This document shows positions 72 through 1,908 of a stretch of DNA of 53,665 nt, in pieces. This stretch comes from an uncultured Bacilli bacterium. GTDB lineage: Bacteria > Bacillota_I > Bacilli_A > RF39 > UBA660. Position numbers and translations under genes: made by a program. The notes under the pieces are model-generated. The model made no database searches, had not been told where the DNA came from, and saw only the letters and a program-made list of their open reading frames with translations. The DNA lies in contig CANQMM010000004.1 in assembly GCA_947624955.1 (NCBI GenBank), positions 1 to 53,665 on the forward strand. The letters run 5' to 3'. Within the stretch, counting starts at the first letter, position 1. Every line of letters begins with the position of its first letter.

Positions 72-98
72 ATAAAAAAAGATGATTTTACTCATCTT
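72..98 (-). terminator. Terminator of the 97..1473 gene
   Basis: Minus strand AAGATGA-loop-TCATCTT followed by TTTTTATT; overlaps the stop codon. Confidence 0.75.
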
Positions 99-1473
99 AA
101 ATGCTCAATTCATATGGTTTTTTTTCACTGCCAATATGATTGTCATCGTGAATTATTTTAACATCTGACTTTAGATAAACGACCGGCCGGACACCAATAA
201 TGGCATTAACATTGTTGGAATGTCCATAACCTGAAGAGTTCACAAGAAACGAAATGTCACGGTATCCGGAACGAGGTGTAAGTGTCCACTGCGCATAATT
301 TGCATTGTATAGCCAGTCGTTATTTTTACAGTTGCTAAAATTACCTTCACTCCAGCCATATAAATCTTTTGCTAAGCATGAATCTCTACCATATACTTCT
401 CCTCCTGTGGCATATCCATAGTCACTTGGATACATTAGTCCTACTTTCCCTATCCATTTCTTCGGATTATTTTCATATACTATTTCACTTCTTTCGACAG
501 TATAAAATTGTTCTGCTAATACTACTGATGAACTTGGCCCGCCTAAATTCCACATTGTTGTTTCTATCATATTTTTAGCAACGTCAGTCAAACCAATTTC
601 TTCATAGTCACCTGTATGCTGCCAGTAATCGCCCTCATTTAATAATTTTTGCAGTGATGCATTGCTCCAATTGTTGACATTACTTGAAGCCCACGGTAAT
701 TGAGATGTCAATCTATCTTTTCTAATTATCTTTATTCTCTTTTCATAATCGCCATTTTCACTTGGCTTAACATAGAATACCCCTATAATCCTCCATAGTT
801 CATCATTAAATGTTACGTAATTGTTCGGATCTTGACCTATATATCTAACGTTCTCATCTGGGTCGTCGTTGGCCATTGTTTTTGTATTTGTGGCAAGGAG
901 ATTTTCGATATATTCGGCTCCGGTTGGTTCGGCAGCAGTTGATACTACGGAAATAAGAGCTTGAAAGGTACTCCCTCCTACTTGGCCATTAGTTGCATCA
1001 TTATCTATCCACAATCTTAATGAATAAGTTTTTTCTGTTTCTGGTTCTAGTCCTCCAAAATCTAAAGAACGCGAACTACTTGTATTATCAAGTGCCGTAC
1101 TAACAGAGTTATATGCACTATACAACATTGGACGACGATTATTTAATTGTAATTTAATATATTGATCATCCATTGTACTTGTATTTAATTTTTCTAAATT
1201 TACGGAAAAGTGAGCATAGATATTACAGGTATTTTTAATCGTAAAAGTATATGCTTCTTGTTGCATTCCTTTTTCATCTGGTATAGGATAAGCATTATTA
1301 AAGTTAATTATATTATTATCATCTGTATAACTAATACTAAAGCAACCTGATTGAAAAAGATTAGTACCAGATTGAACTTCAGTTTGGTTCCATACAGCAT
1401 AAGAAAAACCAATACCTATCGATATTGATAAACATACGGCAAGTATTCCTAGTACTACTACTTTCTTATTCAT
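97..1473 (-). CDS. Secreted/surface protein with SipW-type (camelysin/TasA-like) N-terminus and a C-terminal domain like DUF6273-type gut surface proteins
   Basis: ORF; N-terminus MNKKVVVLGILAVCLSISIGIGFSYAVWNQTEVQSGTNLF; C-terminal WTLTPRSGY..GVRPVVYLK motif. Confidence 0.75.
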   Translation of the reverse strand: MNKKVVVLGILAVCLSISIGIGFSYAVWNQTEVQSGTNLFQSGCFSISYTDDNNIINFNNAYPIPDEKGMQQEAYTFTIKNTCNIYAHFSVNLEKLNTSTMDDQYIKLQLNNRRPMLYSAYNSVSTALDNTSSSRSLDFGGLEPETEKTYSLRLWIDNDATNGQVGGSTFQALISVVSTAAEPTGAEYIENLLATNTKTMANDDPDENVRYIGQDPNNYVTFNDELWRIIGVFYVKPSENGDYEKRIKIIRKDRLTSQLPWASSNVNNWSNASLQKLLNEGDYWQHTGDYEEIGLTDVAKNMIETTMWNLGGPSSSVVLAEQFYTVERSEIVYENNPKKWIGKVGLMYPSDYGYATGGEVYGRDSCLAKDLYGWSEGNFSNCKNNDWLYNANYAQWTLTPRSGYRDISFLVNSSGYGHSNNVNAIIGVRPVVYLKSDVKIIHDDNHIGSEKKPYELSI

Positions 1474-1474
1474 A

Positions 1475-1504
1475 CCTAGTCACCTATATCTTTCTATGAC
1501 TAGG
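1475..1504. repeat. 8-bp perfect inverted repeat CCTAGTCA/TGACTAGG (1475-1482 and 1497-1504) overlapping the -10 and the SD of the 97..1473 gene
   Basis: Read directly from the sequence. Confidence 0.7.
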
Positions 1505-1533
1505 ATACCCCCCCCCCCCCGCATATTTGTCAA
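1502..1533 (-). promoter_or_regulatory. Candidate phase-variable promoter: TTGACA (1528-1533), 20-nt spacer containing G13, TATCCT (1502-1507)
   Basis: Exact -35 consensus and 4/6 -10; C13 on + strand at 1508-1520. Confidence 0.6.
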
Positions 1534-1821: not shown

Positions 1822-1908
1822 ATGAAAAAAGATTGTCAAATCTTATTTCACTATATTATTATTCTATTACTCCTAGTAATAATCATTTACTTGCTTAATC
1901 AGCAATAG
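1822..1908 (+). CDS. 28-aa hydrophobic single-TM peptide MKKDCQILFHYIIILLLLVIIIYLLNQQ, type I toxin-like
   Basis: ATG preceded by GGAGG (1809-1813) at 8 nt; TAG stop; absent from the >=60 aa ORF track. Confidence 0.6.
   Translation: MKKDCQILFHYIIILLLLVIIIYLLNQQ

Follow-up and report, generated by a model that had tools for sequence, protein, structure and literature searches.

The closest described counterparts of the promoter considered here are those of porA of Neisseria meningitidis, where tracts of 11, 10 and 9 G's between the -35 and -10 elements give stepwise lower surface expression (PMC3639595, PMC3899988), and of tp0126 of Treponema pallidum, whose transcription is optimal when the tract between these elements gives a spacing of 17 nt (PMC7864442). 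At tprL, transcription starts just downstream of the tract, at the fourth nucleotide after it, an arrangement reported for paralogous tpr genes (PMC7864442). In Mycoplasma hyorhinis every vlp gene has a poly-A tract in its promoter, with the vmm system of M. mycoides likewise of the promoter-repeat type (PMC10502178).

The locus presented here lies in the window, the whole 53,665-nt stretch of DNA analysed, and its minus strand reads TTGACA-AATATGC-G13-TATCCT ahead of a secreted-protein ORF, exactly as originally predicted. The features of the locus are as follows.

1528 to 1533, minus strand: -35 hexamer TTGACA, unchanged among the cassette copies of this genome
1521 to 1527, minus strand: fixed portion of the spacer, AATATGC (AATATAC in the copy on contig C23)
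1508 to 1520, minus strand: tract of 13 G's, the same site in other copies holding 9, 9, 10, 11, 11, 14 and 14 G's and, in one copy, G5AG7
1502 to 1507, minus strand: -10 hexamer TATCCT, which reads TATTCT in the C22 copy and TATAAT or TATACT in most relatives
1496 to 1507, minus strand: left arm TATCCTAGTCAT of an inverted repeat, overlapping the -10 element, with a hairpin predicted at -13.4 kcal/mol
1480 to 1485, minus strand: Shine-Dalgarno sequence AGGTGA
1474 to 1482, minus strand: right arm TGACTAGGT, overlapping the end of the Shine-Dalgarno sequence and reaching the start codon
1473 to 1471, minus strand: ATG of the surface-protein ORF
97 to 1473, minus strand: predicted secreted or membrane-anchored surface protein of 458 aa with a SipW/camelysin-type N-terminus, one of a large paralogous family (from sequence and a structural model)

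Counted in the sequence, the gap between the hexamers is the 20 nt originally stated, and the -10 hexamer, which is weak, ends 28 nt before the ATG. The distance of 35 nt given for the tract holds if counted from the last G, the end of the run itself lying 34 nt before the ATG. The tract is the sole run of eight or more G's in the window, with its six overlapping G8 matches a count attained by 0 of 100 shuffles, and the expectation of 5e-6 runs of at least 13 G's in the window (i.i.d. model, 32.6% GC) bears out the view that chance is an improbable source.

The genome to which the window belongs, an assembly of 65 contigs and 1.17 Mb, was searched by pattern and by protein. Nine pure runs of at least nine G's are observed genome-wide against 0.16 expected (i.i.d. 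model, 32.6% GC), and all nine sit within one promoter cassette, TTTGACAAATATRC-Gn-TATYCTAGTCATAGAAAGATATAGGTGACTAGGATATG, at dispersed loci. A pattern search free of tract length yields one extra, interrupted copy (C35, G5AG7). Contigs C27 and C46 terminate inside slightly altered copies and C57 begins within its own tract, so that nine complete promoters and three cut at contig ends give at least 12 near-identical copies. The flanks of the cassette are almost invariant, whilst the tract ranges from 9 to 14 G's, the pure complete copies holding 9, 9, 10, 11, 11, 13, 14 and 14 (spacers of 16 to 21). Between contigs C4 (which carries the window), C41 and C42, 0 of 43 flanking cassette positions differ, with tracts of 13, 9 and 11 G's respectively; C4 and C41 are moreover 91% identical across 318 bp, marking them as copies with an altered tract. 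These lengths come from assemblies, with one genome per species, and a short-read assembly may miscount G-runs by about one base; a share of the differences between paralogues may also be old and fixed. The exact cassette has no match in the named genome collection, which may omit this genome.

A repeat between the -35 and -10 elements, differing in length among near-identical promoters, is the arrangement of the porA, tp0126 and vmm type of phase variation. The likeness to porA lies in a poly-G tract in the spacer of a sigma-70-type promoter, a surface-protein gene and similar tract lengths. However, porA is a single gene of a Gram-negative pathogen in which switching and graded expression have been demonstrated, whereas here one cassette stands at many loci of an uncultured gut bacterium of the Bacilli and switching is inferred. 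Treponema likewise has poly-G promoters at a number of surface-protein genes, paralogues among them (PMC7864442), but the tract of tprL lies just ahead of the transcription start, and the Treponema proteins and lineage are unrelated. The vlp and vmm systems offer a surface-protein family, a promoter copy with a variable repeat for each gene and independent ON/OFF switching, but the repeats there are poly-A or dinucleotide ones and the products mycoplasma surface proteins, as against the poly-G tracts and SipW-type secreted proteins seen here. In our reading, to which we assign a probability of about 0.87, the cassettes form a multi-locus phase-variable promoter system in uncultured gut Bacilli resembling those of porA and tp0126, in which surface proteins would very probably be turned up and down at random through slippage of the G-tract. 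The original prediction of a spacer homopolymer that may switch a SipW-type surface protein is thus strongly supported by sequence comparison, with dispersed copies of G9 to G14 and the architecture recurring, with other flanks, across the family.

Where the contig extends far enough, the gene behind the cassette always encodes a surface protein, of two related types: the first, beginning MNKKVVILGILAVCLSISIGIGFSYAVW..., on C4, C12, C22 and C41 and in divergent form on C35, and the second, MKEFNPEKE...IGISFANYSV..., on C19 and C23. A protein search of the genome returned 30 matching stretches for this family, and when eight full members are aligned, the signal region proves conserved and the rest variable. 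The SipW-type assignment of the original prediction is favoured by two genes for a SipW-type signal peptidase in this genome (G000), above the cut-off of TIGR02228. The N-terminus, of the form MNKK...GIGFSYAVW, is judged by eye to be typical of a camelysin/TasA-like signal region; the camelysin match itself (PF12389, residues 3-63, E 0.0084) stays below the family cut-off. DUF6273 matches just 3 of 22 relatives. In the AlphaFold model of the window protein (pLDDT 84.2, pTM 0.70), beta-rich domains come after an N-terminal helix; no PDB match was found by sequence and no close one by structure search. A C-type lectin fold for the C-terminal domain was considered but is not supported, the best PDB match being an IgA peptidase at a TM score of 0.27 despite a pLDDT of 84. 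Three further family members (C33:9958, C45:1172 and C51:2407, minus strand) are without a G-tract upstream of the ATG and have a promoter reading TTGACG...TTGTACAAT...GTATAGTACAAT...TTGTACG, in which TTGTACAAT is repeated; these are perhaps a regulated class among the same surface proteins.

The architecture extends to the wider family. The pattern TTGACA-N3-12-G8+-N0-15-TATNNT is present in 56 of 291 family genomes, compared with 1 of 291 for the reversed-pattern control, and in 42 of 206 when high-quality family genomes are considered. Sampling at the level of the order gave a second set, which overlaps the first and contained the same family only; here the pattern was found in 36 of 156 genomes, with none for the control. 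Runs of at least nine G's occur in 162 of the 291 genomes, at 1 to 76 each. When the promoter pattern was relaxed to five or more G's in 13 genomes, 100 of 103 tracts still held at least eight, with a peak at 9-10, and the spacers of these relatives' promoters peak at 19. Within single genomes, promoters that share the same flanks again differ only in tract length (9/10/11 in G098, 13/16/16 in G155 and 11/11/12/12/12 in G238). The bases flanking the tract vary by genus, as in TTGACAATACCCATC-G10-TATAAT of G133 and TTGACAGAC-G10-TGTGAATTATAAT of G235, so that the architecture recurs with different sequences, and G9 tracts stand in another promoter of the congener G002, ahead of a protein resembling the second gene type. 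Named relatives of the surface protein include Candidatus Onthousia. In named Bacilli MAGs, G10 tracts were also noted upstream of related surface proteins (L113:2488, L117:2482, L118:2293, L123:2397, L144:225 and L147:465), in contexts such as GTTTACAAATTGTTTAC-G10-TAGCTTTAG; their relation to -35 and -10 elements is not evident and the tract may act differently there.

As the TTGACA pattern itself selects promoters, the test was repeated on 64 tracts found by a run of at least nine G's alone, counting ORFs of at least 90 aa that start within 220 nt of the tract. On the G strand 61 of the 64 tracts are followed by such an ORF, on the C strand 2 of 64. Pairs of -35 and -10 elements that reach a score of 10/12 or more span the tract in 31%, as against 1.6% for each of the two controls, the C strand and shuffled flanks. 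By this simple score about half of the unbiased tracts in relatives have no convincing sigma-A -35/-10 pair, so in these the tract may occupy another part of the promoter or act differently. Most of the downstream genes fit the cell surface or envelope: 75 of 90 downstream proteins carry a strongly hydrophobic segment among their first 70 residues, compared with 16 of 45 ORFs of the window. The samples were pooled and do not represent genomes drawn at random, and related loci are non-independent. Pfam searches of 20 downstream proteins returned prepilin N_methyl, BspA-type LRR, DUF285, fn3 and ALK/LTK glycine-rich domains, classes that fit cell-surface proteins. Among the few exceptions that are not obviously surface proteins are, named by eye, an ABC-transporter ATPase (L106) and glycosyltransferase-like ORFs (L228, L261). 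Only 1 of 90 tracts lies inside an ORF.

Whilst a switch is the preferred reading, the poly-G tract might instead be a fixed structural element of the promoters of a co-regulated surface-protein regulon, acting as stiff, A-like DNA or as the site of an as yet unnamed regulator, with the length differences being neutral drift or assembly error. Such an element would suit the near-constant placement of the tract on the coding strand upstream of genes, the genome G120, where 17 of the 21 copies listed have a tract of exactly nine G's, and the presence of MutS. However, copies with identical flanks in this genome span 9 to 13 G's, and the whole set 9 to 14, a difference for which errors of about one base cannot account. 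Furthermore, spacer flanks, tract position and cassette differ completely by genus, which is ill-suited to a conserved binding site and suits any expandable tract, making a fixed element an unlikely explanation. MutS1 is found in this genome and, among 44 family genomes, passes the cut-off in 43, G-rich and G-poor alike, which rules out the loss of mismatch repair as the origin of the long tracts. With MutS1 present, slippage need not be frequent, and switching would be expected at the pace of a cell with working mismatch repair. The sole tested family genome without a full MutS1 match is G238, with at least ten G-tracts (best match 31 bits over 81 positions); this shortfall reflects either gene loss or an assembly gap.

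Less probable again is the proposal that the cassette is mobile or recombining, the promoter and 5' end shared by its copies serving mainly for gene conversion or promoter exchange among surface-protein genes, with the G-tract as a by-product. Dispersed copies are near-identical in the cassette and signal-peptide region and divergent in their C-terminal parts, most contigs bearing a copy break near the cassette, and an inverted repeat overlaps the -10 element, all of which would be expected of such a cassette. In contrast, most copies have unlike upstream flanks, and relatives carry quite different cassettes with the same tract, indicating that it is the tract that recurs and not the cassette; mobility and switching are in any case mutually compatible. 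An artefact of sequencing or assembly, arising from two-colour chemistry or poor-quality read ends, named at the outset as a possible refutation and suggested by contigs C27, C46 and C57 ending in or right at a tract, is dismissed as to the existence of the tract, exact lengths excepted, since tracts sit at one defined site between the hexamers with unique sequence on either side in many copies and many genomes, and since named MAGs from several projects have G-tracts of 8-10 upstream of related genes.

For the preferred switch reading, the following mechanism is proposed. The G13 tract would, as part of the 20-bp gap between the -35 and -10 elements, gain or lose G's by slipped-strand mispairing during replication, and each change would alter the distance and helical phase of the hexamers and with them the efficiency of initiation by sigma-A RNA polymerase at the surface-protein gene. 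The cassette appears to have been copied ahead of dispersed members of the surface-protein family, an arrangement that would allow the loci to be tuned independently and the population to display many surface phenotypes, and each cassette would be a graded switch by analogy with porA and tp0126. We infer slippage in living cells, its effect on transcription and a benefit such as escape from host antibody or phage, or adhesion. The original prediction that the loss of three G's restores an optimum is arithmetically sound, G10 giving 17 bp, but relatives peak at 19 and porA is strongest at 11 G's, leaving G10 as the ON state uncertain.

The inverted repeat TATCCTAGTCAT ... GTGACTAGGATA spans the region from the -10 element to the start codon (window 1474-1507, minus strand) and is found in other cassette copies too. 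As RNA it is predicted to fold at -13 to -16 kcal/mol (z -2.2 to -4.6), with poor predicted folding for an RNA that begins after the left arm. In C22 both arms are altered together (TATTCT / AGAATA), a single compensatory double change; pairing is retained through G-U in C19, one pair is broken in C23, and C4, C35 and C41 have the repeat with a bulge. The transcript from the cassette promoter probably starts within or after the left arm, in which case the hairpin would form, and the Shine-Dalgarno sequence be hidden, only in read-through transcripts. The hairpin may thus mask the Shine-Dalgarno sequence in such transcripts, a role suggested by the one compensatory change.

Additional features adjoin the locus in the window. 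An unlisted 28-aa hydrophobic ORF, MKKDCQILFHYIIILLLLVIIIYLLNQQ, read by eye at 1822-1908 (plus strand), has a good Shine-Dalgarno sequence (GGAGGCGG) and has the appearance of a small membrane peptide or a type I toxin, and a GC-rich hairpin follows it near 1946-1975. An imperfect 52-nt inverted repeat occupies 1619-1731, with near-identical stretches in C58, C18, C56, C25 and C27, at contig ends or elsewhere; this makes it a dispersed repeat adjoining the cassette, and it may represent a terminator or a small mobile element. A search of the window for Rfam elements found none.

The kind of switch is already known; the apparent novelty lies in the carrier group, in a single cassette serving repeatedly at separate loci and in how many of these promoters the family has. 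No earlier report of poly-G switches in gut Bacilli was found among open-licence full texts, a scope that leaves its absence unproven. Poly-G promoter switches have so far come from a few well-studied pathogens, and the counts obtained here suggest a larger use per megabase in an uncultured gut family, with up to 76 runs of at least nine G's in a 1.3-Mb genome compared with a mean of 15.4 poly-G tracts in the meningococcal genome (PMC5953494), although tract thresholds may differ. The balance tips slightly towards a broader proposal, that the family runs very large transcriptional phasomes, with up to dozens of poly-G spacer promoters per 1-1.5 Mb genome, genus-specific spacers and tract positions, diverse surface proteins and mismatch repair kept, and that the cassette hairpin of this species may also hide the ribosome-binding site in read-through but not own-promoter transcripts, leaving the switch as the sole decider. 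If the switch reading is true, commensals would keep altering their surface in the gut, with consequences for immune recognition, phage resistance and strain persistence.
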